From Halobaculum halobium (GTDB lineage Archaea; Halobacteriota; Halobacteria; Halobacteriales; Haloferacaceae), in contig NZ_CP126158.1 of NCBI RefSeq assembly GCF_030127145.1, forward strand, positions 1,488,001 through 1,552,000: a DNA stretch of 64,000 nucleotides. Direction: 5' to 3'. Each line of letters opens with the position of its first letter. Position 1 is the stretch's first letter. Positions 24,788-29,594 of the stretch are shown one piece after another. The notes beneath the pieces are model-generated. The model did not search any database and was not told the DNA's origin. It was given only the letters and a program-made list of their open reading frames with translations. The translations under genes and the position numbers were made by a program.

Positions 24788-25939
24788 TCACTCCGACTCG
24801 TAGGTCGACTCCCACTCCGGGGCCGCCTCCGAACCGGTCTCCGCCTCCGGTTCAAGCATCTCGGCGACGGAGTCGAGCCCGAGCAACTCCCGCTCGTCGT
24901 CGTCGAACTCCAGCGAGTCCAGCGCCGCGGAGTCCTGCACATCAGACCCCGAGAGCTGTTGACCGTAGCGACCGAGCAGGCTCGTCAGCTCCTGCGGGAT
25001 CACGAAGGTGGTGGACTCGCCCTGGCCGATCGACGCCAGGGTCTCCATACCCTTGTCGACGATGGCGCGCTCGCCCATCGACTCGGCCGACCGAGCGCGC
25101 AGCACGGTCGAGATGGCGTCGCCCTGCGCCTCCAGCACCGATGCGACTTTCTCGCCTTGCGCGGAGAGGACGTTCGCCGTCCGCTCGCCCTCGGCGGCCT
25201 CGACGGCCGCGCGGCGCTCGCCCTGCGCCTCCAGGATCATGGCGCGGCGGCGGCGCTCGGCGGAGGTCTGCTCCTCCATGGCGTCGACGACGCCCCGGGT
25301 CGGGAGCACTTCCTTCACCTCGACCATCTCGACGTCGACGCCCCAGTCGTCGGTCGGCCCCTGGAGGCTCTTTCGGATGCGCCGGTTGATCTCGTCGCGC
25401 CGCGAGAGCGTCTCGTCGAGTTCCATGTCGCCGATGACCGCCCGGAGAGACGTCTGTGCCAGCAGCGCGGTCGCACGGCGGTAGTTTTCGACGTTGAGGA
25501 ACGACCGCTTGGCGTCGACGACGCGCACGTAGACGACCGCGTCGGCGGTCACCGGCGAGTTGTCGCGGGTGATCGCCTCCTGGGTCGGCACGTCGATCGT
25601 CTGGACGCGCTTGTCGAACCGGTAGGTCCTGGAGACGAACGGGGGGATCAGGTGGATCCCAGGGTCGAGGAGCCCGCGGTAGGAGCCGAGCACCGTGAGC
25701 GCGCGCTGCTCGTAGGCCTGCACGATCTCGACAGTCGAGAGCAGCGTGACCAGCGCCAGGACGAGCGCCGTCCCCCCGACCGCGTACATCGTCGGGAGGA
25801 GAGCCCACGCGAGGAGGGCGAGCGCGACGCCGAGGCCGATCTGGAATCGACCGTCGTCGGGGAGCAGGTCCGGGAGGCCGACCTCGCCGGCGCTCATGCG
25901 ACCCAGCGTTCGAAAGAACCGACCGCCGGCGTCGTTCAT
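24788..25939 (-). CDS. SPFH/band-7 (stomatin-like) membrane protein
   Basis: This 383-aa protein has two adjacent hydrophobic segments (about 33-66), then a band-7/SPFH domain (about 68-240) with the stomatin hallmarks DPGIHLIPPFV, RVQTIDVPTQEAITRDN and NRRIRKSLQ. A predicted coiled coil (240-310) with repeated EAQGE and AEGER motifs and an acidic tail follow. SPFH proteins form ring-shaped membrane cages and often scaffold membrane proteases. No NfeD partner is adjacent. It stands downstream of an intergenic 25-bp tandem repeat (26002-26092), which lies in its promoter region. Confidence 0.9.
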   Translation of the reverse strand: MNDAGGRFFRTLGRMSAGEVGLPDLLPDDGRFQIGLGVALALLAWALLPTMYAVGGTALVLALVTLLSTVEIVQAYEQRALTVLGSYRGLLDPGIHLIPPFVSRTYRFDKRVQTIDVPTQEAITRDNSPVTADAVVYVRVVDAKRSFLNVENYRRATALLAQTSLRAVIGDMELDETLSRRDEINRRIRKSLQGPTDDWGVDVEMVEVKEVLPTRGVVDAMEEQTSAERRRRAMILEAQGERRAAVEAAEGERTANVLSAQGEKVASVLEAQGDAISTVLRARSAESMGERAIVDKGMETLASIGQGESTTFVIPQELTSLLGRYGQQLSGSDVQDSAALDSLEFDDDERELLGLDSVAEMLEPEAETGSEAAPEWESTYESE

Positions 25940-26001: not shown

Positions 26002-26092
26002 CCGGCGATCGGAGAAGCGATCGAAACCGGCGATCGGAGAAGCGATCGAAACCGGCGATCGGAGAAGCGATCGAAACCGGCGATCGGAGAAG
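26002..26092. repeat. 25-bp tandem repeat, about 3.6 copies
   Basis: A 25-bp unit starting CCGGCGATCGGAGAAGCGAT recurs at 26002, 26027, 26052 and 26077. The last copy breaks off at about 26092. Each unit holds an inverted pair CGATC-8 nt-GATCG. The array lies in the 178-nt gap between the stop of the secreted repeat protein (26118) and the SPFH start (25939). The period is not a multiple of three, which argues against coding. It may be a protein-binding array or a hotspot of copy-number change. Confidence 0.9.
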
Positions 26093-26117: not shown

Positions 26118-27314
26118 TCAGCGGGGTGCGAGGTACCGCCCGTCGTCGACGCGGGGGTCGTCGCCGTCGTCCTCGGGAGACGGAGTCGGGGTCGCGGTGC
26201 CGTCGTCGGGCGGGCCGTTGCCGTTCTCGCGGCCGTCGCCGTCGGCACCATCCCTGTCGCTGCTGTCACCGGCGTCTGTCCCGCTCGATCCGTCCGCGGC
26301 GGCGTCGCCGTCGTTCGCGTTCCCGCGATCGTCCGCGGCGTCACTCGTCTCACCCGGAGTGCCCGATTGGCCCGCGTCGTCGGTCCCGTTCTCGTCGGCC
26401 TCGCCGGCGTCCGTCGTTCGGTTCCCGTTGCCGCGGTCGCCGGCCCCGTCGTCGTCGGCCTCGCCGTTCTCGCCCCCTGACTCGCTCCGGTTCGCGTTCC
26501 CGCGATCGTCGTCGGGGGGACCGGCGGCACCCTCGCCGCGGTCGTCGGCGTCGCCGTCATCGTCGACCGGTCCGGCGTCCTCGGGCGGACCTGACTCGTT
26601 GTCGCCGGGCGGACCCGCGTCCTCGGGCGGACCTGACTCGTTGTCGCCGGGCGGCCCCGCGTCCGCAGGCGGACCCGCGTCCTCGGGCGGACCTGACTCG
26701 TTGTCGCCGGGCGGCCCCGCGTCCGCAGGCGGACCCGCGTCCTCGGGCGGCCCCGGGTCGCCGGCGAGTCCGTTGCCGGTGTCGGCGCCGCCGATCCCGC
26801 GTGCCGCCTCAGCGACCTCCCCGCCGCCCATCTCCGAAGCGTTCCGACGAAGTTCGTCGATCGCGGAGGCGTTCACGCCGCGCTCACGCAGGCTCTCCTC
26901 GGGGATTCCCTCCGCTGCCGCGGCGGTGGCGTTCAGGCGGTGTTCGAGCGTGCGGATCTGCGCGCCGATGCGCGCGAGCCTGGATCGGTACTCGCCACGG
27001 GTGATCTCGCCCGATTGGTACCGCTGCTCCAGCGTCTCGCGGCGCTCGCGAAGCGTCGAGAGCTGTTGACGGGCGTTCTCGGTCTCTCCGGCGACGACCG
27101 CCGCCTTCGAGGCGTTCGACTCCGCACCGGCCAGGCGCCGGTCGAGCGATCGCTGGGCGACTTCGCCCTCGACTTCCGCTCCCTGCACCCCGACGACGCC
27201 GGCGAACGTCGCCCCCGGCTGCTCCCCAGACGATTCCTGGGCGAACGCGGCCGTCGCGGGAATTCCCGCCACGACGAGCATCGCGACCGCCAGGAGCACA
27301 GTCGTCCGACTCAT
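26118..27314 (-). CDS. secreted Pro/Gly/Asp repeat protein
   Basis: This is a 398-aa exported protein. A Sec signal peptide is clear (SRTTVLLAVAMLVVAG then AFAQE). The mature N-terminal domain (about 25-170) is helical and contains a predicted coiled coil (NARQQLSTLRERRETLEQRY, RSRLARIGAQIRTLEHRLN). The rest is low-complexity, acidic and disordered. It contains a 20-residue repeat of the type PPEDAGPPADAGPPGDNESG, plus stretches rich in Asp, Gly and Asn. There is no C-terminal membrane anchor or sortase-type tail. The start MSRTTV at 27314 is preferred to the frame start at 27335. It lies downstream of the tethered regulator gene on the same strand. Confidence 0.75.
   Translation of the reverse strand: MSRTTVLLAVAMLVVAGIPATAAFAQESSGEQPGATFAGVVGVQGAEVEGEVAQRSLDRRLAGAESNASKAAVVAGETENARQQLSTLRERRETLEQRYQSGEITRGEYRSRLARIGAQIRTLEHRLNATAAAAEGIPEESLRERGVNASAIDELRRNASEMGGGEVAEAARGIGGADTGNGLAGDPGPPEDAGPPADAGPPGDNESGPPEDAGPPADAGPPGDNESGPPEDAGPPGDNESGPPEDAGPVDDDGDADDRGEGAAGPPDDDRGNANRSESGGENGEADDDGAGDRGNGNRTTDAGEADENGTDDAGQSGTPGETSDAADDRGNANDGDAAADGSSGTDAGDSSDRDGADGDGRENGNGPPDDGTATPTPSPEDDGDDPRVDDGRYLAPR
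26611..26750. repeat. 60-bp-period in-frame coding repeat
   Basis: Bases 26611-26690 and 26671-26750 are identical at a 60-bp offset, with a shorter related unit just before. The repeat encodes the 20-residue Pro/Gly/Asp unit of the secreted protein. Near-identity at the DNA level suggests recent duplication or slippage. Confidence 0.85.
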
Positions 27315-27432
27315 ACCTCCGACATGGACACCCACCTACTAATACCGTCCACTCACTCACGTCGGATTTACCGCGCTTAAGCGACGTTAAGTCCGCGTCG
27401 TCGTCCGGTTTCTCGAAGAGCGAGGCGAGCCG

Positions 27433-28773
27433 TCAGGCGTCCGACCCGTCGTCGCCGTGGGTCGGGTCGCCCGGGTGGGGATCGTCGTCAGCCTCCGGGA
27501 TGCGGAGGACGTTCTCCCGACCGAGTCGGAAGCTCTCGATGTCACCGTCGTCACGCAGGTCGCCGACGACCTGGCTGGTCCGGGCGGCGCTCCACCCGAG
27601 TTCCTCGGTCACGTCCGCCTGTTTCATCCGCCCGCCGTTGTCCGTCACGAGGCGCGTCACCCGCTCGTGCGGGCTGAGAAGTTCCTCCGGCGGAGTCGTG
27701 GCGTCTCCATCGCCGTCACCGTGTTCGGAGTCCGAATCGGTGCCGGCCGCGGCCGAACCGCCGGAGTCCGGGCCGTCTCCACCGGGGCCGCCGGCGTCGG
27801 CGACAGCGCCGTCCGTCGTCTCTCCGGCGGTCTGTCCGGGGCCGGCCGAGCCGCCCTCGCCCGCCGCGGTGCCGGCACCCTCGTCGCCCGCGAGCGGACC
27901 GCGGTCGTCGCCGGTGCCGATCGGGAGATCGCCGCGGCGGCGGAGGAGGACGGCGCCGACGATGCCCAGCAGCACGACCGCCGCGGCCGCGAGGTAGACG
28001 GGGCGAATCGGCAGCGCTGACGCCGGAGCGAGCACCACTTGCGGCTGATCCGGACCGAAGTTTCGCTCGCCGCGCCACGTCGCGGCCGTCTCCGAGCGCT
28101 CGTCGGCCGCCGGCGACACCGTCCGCGCGTCGTACGCCTCGGGCCACGCGATCGTGAGGACGGTCCCCGAGTCGAGGTACAGACCGGCTAACGAGTCGCC
28201 GGCGACGACGCGCTGGCCCTGGGTCCCGGCGAAGCCCTCCCAGGCGAACGTGTAGGCGACGACGCCGTAGTCGGTGCTGGTCGGGAACGGGTTGCGCTGG
28301 GCGGTCACCGAGAAGTTCGAAGCGGCCATCTCCCGGCCGGTGGCGTTCTCGGCGGCCGCGACGGTCGTGGCCATCCGACCCTCGAAGCGGGCGACGTACG
28401 CGGACGTGTTCTCGCGGATGTCCGACTGGAGGCTCTCGAACGCCGCGGTCGTGTTCTCGTCGCTCAACTCGATCCGGTAGGCGATCCGCCACTGTGCGTC
28501 GCCGTCGGGTTGGATCTCCGCCCGGAGGACGACGGTGTCGGCAGCGATGTCGCCGGTCTGTGCGAAGCCGGCGCCGAGGTCGCGCGGAGACGATCCCGGC
28601 GGCCTGAGCCGAGCGGGGTCGCCATCGGTTGGGGCCGGCGTGGCGGAGTCGGCGGAACTGACGAACCCAGAGAGATCGGCAGCGCCGGGCCCCGTCGCGG
28701 CCGCGACCGCCGGAGCGACGCCGGCGAGCGCGAGAACGATGGCGAGCGCGATGGCCGCGGCGGGGCGTCGCAT
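27433..28773 (-). CDS. membrane-tethered winged-helix regulator with extracellular domain
   Basis: This is a 446-aa protein in four parts. First is a signal peptide (residues 1-25, ending VAPAVAAA). Second is an extracellular domain (about 60-255), beta-rich and with many N-glycosylation sequons. Third is one membrane segment (about 258-280, YLAAAAVVLLGIVGAVLL) followed by RRRGD, which places the rest inside. Fourth, after an acidic disordered linker, is a winged helix near the C-terminus (SPHERVTRLVTDNGGRMKQA, then DVTEELGWSAARTSQVVGDL and RDDGDIESFRLGRENVLRI). The architecture suggests a one-component sensor that could act while tethered or after release. It is divergent from the 60-aa membrane peptide gene, a natural target. 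Confidence 0.82.
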   Translation of the reverse strand: MRRPAAAIALAIVLALAGVAPAVAAATGPGAADLSGFVSSADSATPAPTDGDPARLRPPGSSPRDLGAGFAQTGDIAADTVVLRAEIQPDGDAQWRIAYRIELSDENTTAAFESLQSDIRENTSAYVARFEGRMATTVAAAENATGREMAASNFSVTAQRNPFPTSTDYGVVAYTFAWEGFAGTQGQRVVAGDSLAGLYLDSGTVLTIAWPEAYDARTVSPAADERSETAATWRGERNFGPDQPQVVLAPASALPIRPVYLAAAAVVLLGIVGAVLLRRRGDLPIGTGDDRGPLAGDEGAGTAAGEGGSAGPGQTAGETTDGAVADAGGPGGDGPDSGGSAAAGTDSDSEHGDGDGDATTPPEELLSPHERVTRLVTDNGGRMKQADVTEELGWSAARTSQVVGDLRDDGDIESFRLGRENVLRIPEADDDPHPGDPTHGDDGSDA

Positions 28774-28834
28774 ACCCGTCCTCACCGCAGGGGCGCCCAA
28801 AACGGTTTTCGTCGGCGGCGAGTCACTCCGTGAT

Positions 28835-29017
28835 ATGGCTCTGGACGTGGAGGATCTGCTGAAGATCGTGTTGCTGCTCGTGATAGTCTGGCTGATCGTC
28901 GAGATCGTCACCGGGGTGCTCGGGTTCGCACTCGGGCTGATCGCCGGCCCCCTGAAGGGCGTCATCGGACTCGTCATCGTCGTGCTCATCGTGCTGTGGC
29001 TGACCGACAACCTCTGA
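28835..29017 (+). CDS. 60-aa two-helix membrane protein (DUF7554-like)
   Basis: This tiny membrane protein has two hydrophobic helices, residues 9-33 (IVLLLVIVWLIVEIVTGVLG) and 38-57 (GPLKGVIGLVIVVLIVLWLT), with few charged residues. It resembles the haloarchaeal DUF7554 family of unknown function. The ATG at 28835 is in a longer open frame whose upstream part is antisense to the regulator gene. The next gene's GTG begins 4 nt after its stop, so the pair is probably one message. Confidence 0.68.
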   Translation: MALDVEDLLKIVLLLVIVWLIVEIVTGVLGFALGLIAGPLKGVIGLVIVVLIVLWLTDNL

Positions 29018-29021
29018 GCCG

Positions 29022-29594
29022 GTGTACAGCGTCAACGTCCCCGTTCCGTGGTCGGTGCAGCGCCTCGCGGCGTCGCTCGAGCCCGCACTCACCGGCTTCG
29101 CGTCGATCCGCGACAGACACACGCTCGTGGTGAAGCGCCTCGACGGCCGCGACCTGAACGATCTCCACCGGATCCGCGAGCGACTGCGGCCCGCGCTGCG
29201 AGGCGTCGCTCCGTTCGAGGTGCGCGTCACCGGCGTCGACGCGTTCGAGGCTCCGCCTTTGGGGGACGCGCCGGTCGTCTATCTCGCGGTCGAGGCGGTG
29301 CCCCAAGGCGCCGGCGACAGCGGCGACGACGGCGGCGACGCCGATCCGGCCCCGCTGCGAGCGATACACGACCGACTCGTCCGGGAGTTCGGCGCGGTTT
29401 CGGGGCTGGAGGAGGCGGACTACGTCCCGCACGTCACGCTCGCACGGGGATGGGAGGGAGCGGGCGACCCAGCCGATGCCGTCTCGCGCTTGCGCGAGCG
29501 CGACCTCGAGGCGGTGCGCTGGACGGTCGACGAACTGGGCGTCTGGACGCGCGAGTACAAGGAGATCGCCGCGCGGGTGCCGCTTCGGGGGTGA
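29022..29594 (+). CDS. 2H phosphoesterase superfamily protein (2'-5' RNA ligase-like)
   Basis: This 190-aa protein has the two-lobed LigT/2H fold. The second catalytic motif is intact (PHVTLARGW, HxTL). In the first lobe the corresponding segment reads RHTLVVKRL, where H is followed directly by T, so the first HxT appears altered. The family hydrolyses or forms 2',5' or cyclic phosphodiester bonds in RNA or nucleotides. The altered first motif could mean lost or changed activity. The start is GTG at 29022, 4 nt after the stop of the two-helix membrane protein, implying coupled expression. Confidence 0.8.
   Translation: MYSVNVPVPWSVQRLAASLEPALTGFASIRDRHTLVVKRLDGRDLNDLHRIRERLRPALRGVAPFEVRVTGVDAFEAPPLGDAPVVYLAVEAVPQGAGDSGDDGGDADPAPLRAIHDRLVREFGAVSGLEEADYVPHVTLARGWEGAGDPADAVSRLRERDLEAVRWTVDELGVWTREYKEIAARVPLRG

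Follow-up and report, generated by a model that had tools for sequence, protein, structure and literature searches.

A membrane-tethered winged-helix regulator and its secreted helical neighbour form an order-wide unit in haloarchaea

In a 64,000-nucleotide stretch of the Halobaculum halobium genome (hereafter the window, part of contig 1 of this 3.46-Mb haloarchaeal genome), two adjacent genes on the reverse strand encode a membrane-tethered winged-helix regulator, REG1 (27433-28773, 446 aa), and a secreted DUF7096-type helical protein, D96-1 (26118-27314, 398 aa). These names, like REG2 and D96-2 for a paralogous pair described below, were coined in this analysis. The two genes form a unit that is supported across the order, and a conserved promoter element upstream of D96-1 offers REG1 a plausible local target. 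We consider it reasonably likely that REG1 is a transmembrane transcription regulator that controls, and probably senses through, its secreted partner D96-1. An earlier note on this DNA had grouped the two genes with an SPFH scaffold gene and a divergent two-helix protein as one surface-sensing unit, and all four features were found where it had placed them.

From the Pfam matches it is clear that REG1 joins a sensor domain to a winged helix. The DUF7345 sensor domain (residues 85-214; 28132-28521, reverse strand) was matched with E 3.3e-30 and 105.3 bits against a cut-off of 27.5, and DUF7343, the predicted winged-helix DNA-binding domain (residues 365-426; 27496-27681, reverse strand), with E 6.3e-26 and 90.4 bits against a cut-off of 27.6, at the same position as in the whole-genome search. 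A model of residues 66-285 has a mean predicted local distance difference test score (pLDDT) of 91.0 and terminates in a long helix, model residues 193-214, corresponding to protein residues 258-279 (27937-28002, reverse strand). This is read as the membrane helix, its hydrophobicity being judged from the sequence, and is joined to the winged helix by an acidic linker; the signal peptide was judged by eye, without a predictor. When N-x-S/T sequons were pooled over the sensor and winged-helix open reading frames (ORFs) of the loci set, 317 were counted in 16,023 sensor residues, whereas the cytoplasmic side of the regulators had 14 in 14,005; the DUF7096-type proteins (D96) carried 241 in 12,922 residues. 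The sequon counts support a topology with DUF7345 and D96 outside the cell and the winged helix inside. The earlier note had read the same order, namely signal peptide, extracellular domain, membrane helix and cytoplasmic winged helix. One Halobaculum genome (G008, locus L046) has REG1 split across two frames, with sensor and winged helix in separate ORFs, owing to either a frameshift or a sequencing error.

D96-1 matches DUF7096 weakly (E 1.1e-6, 29.2 bits against a cut-off of 27.0), over profile positions 75-197 of 208 only. Its conserved helical domain, delimited by alignments to about residues 33-174 (26793-27218, reverse strand), was modelled within residues 26-185 as three long helices plus short ones with a pLDDT of 88.6, and is followed by a repetitive Pro/Gly/Asp/Glu tail, in keeping with the secreted coiled-coil and repeat protein of the earlier note. 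The domain gave no PDB match at E < 0.001, the best matches being mostly designed helical proteins, and NCBIfam returned only low-complexity or coiled-coil matches for D96-1 and no match for REG1. The sole match of a PDB sequence search with the sensor alignment was an antibody chain (E 0.83). Compared by structure, the REG1 sensor model matched FMO with a Foldseek E of 6.2e-7 but a TM score of 0.27; the VIA comparison gave Z 8.7 for FMO (root-mean-square deviation (rmsd) 6.0 over 135) and Z 7.6 for LppM (rmsd 4.4 over 129). The likenesses to FMO, OST1 and LppM domains are weak, and since all lie at or near the range that the structure-comparison tool rates as common, no ligand class can be deduced from them. 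Neither PDB search, with the sensor or with the D96-1 domain, demonstrates a new fold.

The REG1 query matched 195 of 197 relatives, paralogues included. Gene order was examined in regions chosen by hand from the best REG1 matches, not at random; 60 were collected and 58 counted, a set that includes one type-2 regulator (locus L082) and excludes the window genome's own REG2 (L093) and a placeholder region (L094). Domains in this count were placed by profile coordinates, with positional errors that can reach a few hundred bases, and the classes were re-derived by sequence coordinates. Of the 58 loci, 48 have a D96 gene close to the regulator and in the same orientation (44 downstream, 4 upstream), one (L082) has it on the opposite strand, and nine have none nearby. 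A second collection of named loci, overlapping the first in organisms, has D96 inside the fetched flanks in 71 of 80. Behind the pair stand argG, argH, a gene that we take to be LysW-like and a lysX-like gene in several families, and different genes in others; since the flanking genes change between families while the pair persists, it is the REG1/D96-1 pair that stays together. The earlier note had made conservation of the neighbours in other haloarchaea the check on its proposal, and for the secreted protein this conservation was borne out. The unit is also present in Haloferax (L181, L199, L201, L202, L211 and L212).

The two genes also occur together across genomes. Scores of the D96-1 profile are bimodal, the best E per genome lying either at or below about 1e-37 or else from about 1e-23 upwards. 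With a REG1 threshold of 1e-30, 133 of the 138 genomes that count as REG1-positive have D96-1, as against none of the 56 REG1-negative ones; with a threshold of 1e-36 the figures are 128/131 and 5/63, respectively. REG1-negative genomes, some of them incomplete assemblies, occur inside otherwise positive genera (g4, g5, g18, g21 and g23), consistent with repeated joint loss of REG1 and D96-1.

An alignment of the REG1-D96-1 gap across the genus Halobaculum revealed a conserved block that combines TTAA-type words, spaced 10 bp apart, with a TATA-like box. In the window, the block comprises a candidate operator of three in-phase decamers (27381-27390, 27371-27380 and 27361-27370; together 27361-27390, reverse strand) and a TATA-like element of the D96-1 promoter, GGTATTAGTA (27337-27346, reverse strand), that is kept in the genus alignment. 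Among 84 distinct D96-1 regions, 59 contain a TTAA/TTGA/TGAA pair at exactly 10 bp, as compared with a mean of 0.92 and a maximum of 4 in 100 shuffles; spacings of 9, 11 and 20 bp were found in 14, 14 and 30 regions. The pooled repeat unit approximates TTRAYCSGSS, its TTRA returning at 10-bp intervals before the TATA box. Between the last word and the TATA-like box, identified with a motif list that we drew up, distances of 20-22 and 30-32 bp are the commonest, as helical phasing would produce. The repeats are retained in loci where D96-1 precedes REG1, with 42 pairs at 10 bp in 26 regions. They are also retained where the two genes lie apart by coordinates (G017, G020, G023, G024, G045, G047, G063, G127, G143, G169, G183 and G190), an in-phase word pair standing before D96-1 in 11 of these 12 genomes, with G127 as the exception. 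Because they are kept in both arrangements, the repeats follow D96-1. Secondary D96-1-like copies are mostly devoid of them (none in L310-L316, one pair in L317 and L318).

In whole-genome pattern searches, the genus pattern matched 7 of 12 genomes, once each and always at the REG1-D96-1 gap, with no control match, and in those seven the repeats are thus unique to this place; the window genome itself has no exact match to it. Among 118 genomes, a strict two-decamer pattern had a single match, which lies before D96-1 in G022 (Halorubrum-type). A looser triple pattern matched in 35 of 194 genomes, and its control matched too; the matches were a mix of D96-1, a zinc-ribbon gene of g24, simple-sequence arrays (G109, G113) and single others. 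A broad regulon of decamers was therefore rejected. For REG1 itself, the 61-bp intergenic region common to REG1 and the divergent DUF7554 gene (28774-28834) contains CGAAAACCGTTTTGGG at about 28796-28811, identical across six aligned Halobaculum-type sequences; across the order, the regular expression applied to it matched in 1 of 56, so that no order-wide REG1 promoter element emerged.

The window genome encodes a second DUF7345-DUF7343 protein, and a canonical DUF7096 gene lies directly divergent from it. Such canonical DUF7096 (D96-2) loci have a divergent regulator (REG2) in 38 of 41 cases, the exceptions being L102, L110 and L134. In trees built without an outgroup, with type labels assigned beforehand, the two types are fully apart both for the regulators (56 type 1 and 39 type 2, local support 0.949) and for the D96 domains (49 type 1 and 42 type 2, local support 0.982), and they remain apart in both trees after further members are added. 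This parallel split is compatible with the two genes having been duplicated together. The REG1 and REG2 winged helices differ at conserved positions, such as T38/V38, V41/L41 and R46/A46, as expected, though not proof, if they read different sites. In 35 of 39 REG2/D96-2 divergent regions (for example L093) a conserved AAAACGCTTTCCAT-like element stands next to the beginning of REG2, with none in each of 20 shuffles; it is putatively either the promoter or an operator of this pair. The D96-2 regions have 10-bp pairs in 0 of 39, and over a wider span two pairs among 40, so that a repeat element common to both pairs was rejected, the D96-2 regions carrying the AAAACGCTTTCCAT-like sequence instead. 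A DUF7345-only protein, which has no winged helix, adjoins a D96 gene in a total of ten loci (L061, L082, L084, L087, L226, L295, L296, L299, L300 and L301; that of L226 is partial, at the locus end). The L084 protein, the sole one checked against Pfam in this respect, has a PGF-CTERM anchor signal over the cut-off (E 3.7e-5), and those of L061, L082 and L087 have similar C-terminal letters. The repeated occurrence of D96 beside such proteins therefore points to a relation of D96 with the sensor domain itself.

Archaeal transmembrane transcription regulators (TTRs) have been stated to be common (Demey et al. 2023, PMC10269533). A TTR combines, within a single polypeptide, a predicted DNA-binding domain and one or more membrane regions, as REG1 does with DUF7343 and the predicted helix, and regulates transcription while in the membrane, as REG1 would. 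The part of that source considered here describes, however, no DUF7345-DUF7343 architecture, secreted partner or operator, and 'Halobacter' does not appear in its main text. VtrA/VtrC and ToxR/ToxS (Kinch et al. 2022, PMC9214523) likewise consist of a membrane-bound regulator and an extracytoplasmic partner encoded by an adjacent gene, as REG1 has in the 48 same-strand loci. In contrast to REG1, whose order is sensor, helix and winged helix, those regulators have an N-terminal cytoplasmic helix-turn-helix, then a membrane helix and a C-terminal periplasmic domain, and their partner is lipocalin-like whereas the D96-1 domain is predicted to be all-helical; in those systems the two extracytoplasmic domains form an obligate heterodimer, as DUF7345 and D96-1 might. 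Because both domain order and partner fold depart from the co-component class, REG1/D96-1 falls outside it, and would best be described as ToxR/ToxS-like in logic and not as a member; the word 'Archaea' is absent from the text of that paper. ArnR and ArnR1 of Sulfolobus acidocaldarius (PMC6396743, PMC13286277) are also archaeal membrane-bound one-component regulators, of surface structures, but their helix-turn-helix is N-terminal (PMC13286277), whereas the winged helix of REG1 is C-terminal, and the passages of both papers that we drew on make no mention of a secreted partner. DUF7345, DUF7343 and DUF7096 are curated Pfam families of unknown function, matched here over their curated cut-offs; the pairing, the paralogous types and the promoter element come from this analysis. 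A text search of the open-access literature set found no paper using the names DUF7343, DUF7345, DUF7096 or DUF7554 or the three Pfam accessions, and for COG2512 only two unrelated papers.

We propose that DUF7345 would lie outside the cell, with one helix through the membrane and the DUF7343 winged helix reading DNA from the membrane. REG1, probably as several subunits, would bind the in-phase decamers just 5' of the D96-1 TATA box and activate, rather than repress, D96-1. The secreted D96-1 would then return to contact DUF7345 and, by reporting conditions between the membrane and the S-layer, complete a feedback loop; REG1 may in this way sense envelope state and bind at its own locus. Alongside it, the REG2/D96-2 pair would operate with another recognition helix and another conserved promoter element. 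More tentatively, and with rather less confidence than an even chance, we suggest that the DUF7345 receptor and the secreted DUF7096 protein jointly make up an extracytoplasmic receptor. This would be an archaeal counterpart of the co-component systems, of separate origin and inverted topology, existing in at least two parallel versions with their own promoter elements, with an autoregulatory loop in which several membrane-held winged helices would occupy helically phased decamers along one face of the DNA.

Several observations weigh against the proposed circuit. No exact 10-bp pair is present in 25 of the 84 D96-1 regions, and a strict triple pattern matched the window genome once, at the D96-1 site, while its reversed control also gave one match. 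The co-occurrence depends on the threshold, a REG1 cut-off of 1e-26 giving 133/147 positive and 0/47 negative genomes, and at 1e-30 five REG1-positive genomes are without D96-1 (among them G031, whose locus is REG2-type, and G087, which is 73% complete). The Fisher values and counts, moreover, ignore shared ancestry, and related species are not independent events. The same decamers stand before an unrelated 66-aa zinc-ribbon gene in ten g24 genomes (L227, L228 and L230-L237), and the element is therefore not exclusive to D96-1; REG1 is the best-placed candidate reader of the decamers, and another regulator could read them. Outside g24, decamers perhaps also precede the zinc-ribbon gene in G035 (L252). 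As a general second target this gene is unsupported outside g24, 30 loci from a 60-genome search yielding two pairs at 10-bp spacing.

If a different regulator reads the decamers, REG1 would control other genes and be linked to D96-1 through a common envelope process. The g24 repeats speak for this arrangement, but we find it improbable, given the absence of D96-1 from all 56 REG1-negative genomes and of repeats from the REG2/D96-2 regions. A stronger competitor, although still rather unlikely in our judgement, is a plain one-component regulator in which REG1 alone senses a small molecule or physical cue and D96-1 is a secreted output, structural or surface-protective, outside the receptor. 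Conserved repeats before D96-1 suit a target gene, its long low-complexity tail is such as a structural protein might have, and a linked, co-lost pattern is equally expected for a regulator with one main target; D96 genes, however, lie repeatedly beside DUF7345-only proteins without a winged helix, and the REG2 pair has been retained although its promoter region is without repeats. REG1 might also be freed by proteolysis to act as a soluble factor rather than at the membrane, and the linker that joins its membrane helix to the winged helix, which is long, acidic and of low complexity, is a possible cleavage or tether region; we give this little credence, since the gene-order table, in which unnamed clusters are partly identified, contains no protease recognised as a constant neighbour.

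The earlier note's proposal of a single surface-sensing unit made up of the regulator, the secreted protein, the SPFH scaffold and the divergent two-helix protein now appears very improbable, and as an order-wide statement it is largely refuted. The SPFH/Band_7 gene (24788-25939, reverse strand, E 7.8e-37) is present as described, and the gene order does not vary within Halobaculum or the related genus g16, but SPFH occurs on the same strand of the fetched region in only 13 of the 58 loci, from four genera (g1, g16, g15 and g8), and other genes follow the pair elsewhere. SPFH, NMD3, which like SPFH lies downstream of the pair in the window, and the other window genes were thus rejected as order-wide partners, and what stands of the proposed unit is REG1 with D96-1 and the conserved promoter-proximal repeat. 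The two-helix membrane protein, DUF7554 (28835-29017, forward strand, E 3.6e-19), also exists as predicted; as a neighbour it is frequent but not constant, lying divergent beside the regulator in 22 of the 58 loci and farther away in one more. Behind it, a 2'-5' RNA ligase or RNA 2',3'-cyclic phosphodiesterase-like gene (29022-29594, forward strand; Pfam), likewise frequent but not constant, is divergent in 24 loci and farther away in two, and the two genes recur as a divergent pair beside REG1 in several families. The gap that separates D96-1 from the SPFH gene contains 3.6 perfect tandem copies of a 25-bp unit, CCGGCGATCGGAGAAGCGATCGAAA (26002-26092), and a 21-base piece of this repeat had no match among the loci collected from other genomes.

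Haloarchaea have no outer membrane, and their S-layer is held just above the cell membrane. Against this background the REG1/D96-1 pair looks like a previously undescribed means by which haloarchaea monitor the condition of their cell surface, and the unit supplies, order-wide, a named receptor, a partner and a candidate DNA site for the question of S-layer sensing. Its presence in Haloferax, for which genetics is routine, makes this membrane-to-DNA signalling directly testable. If the proposal is true, membrane-bound transcription regulation would gain a case that evolved independently and has its topology inverted.

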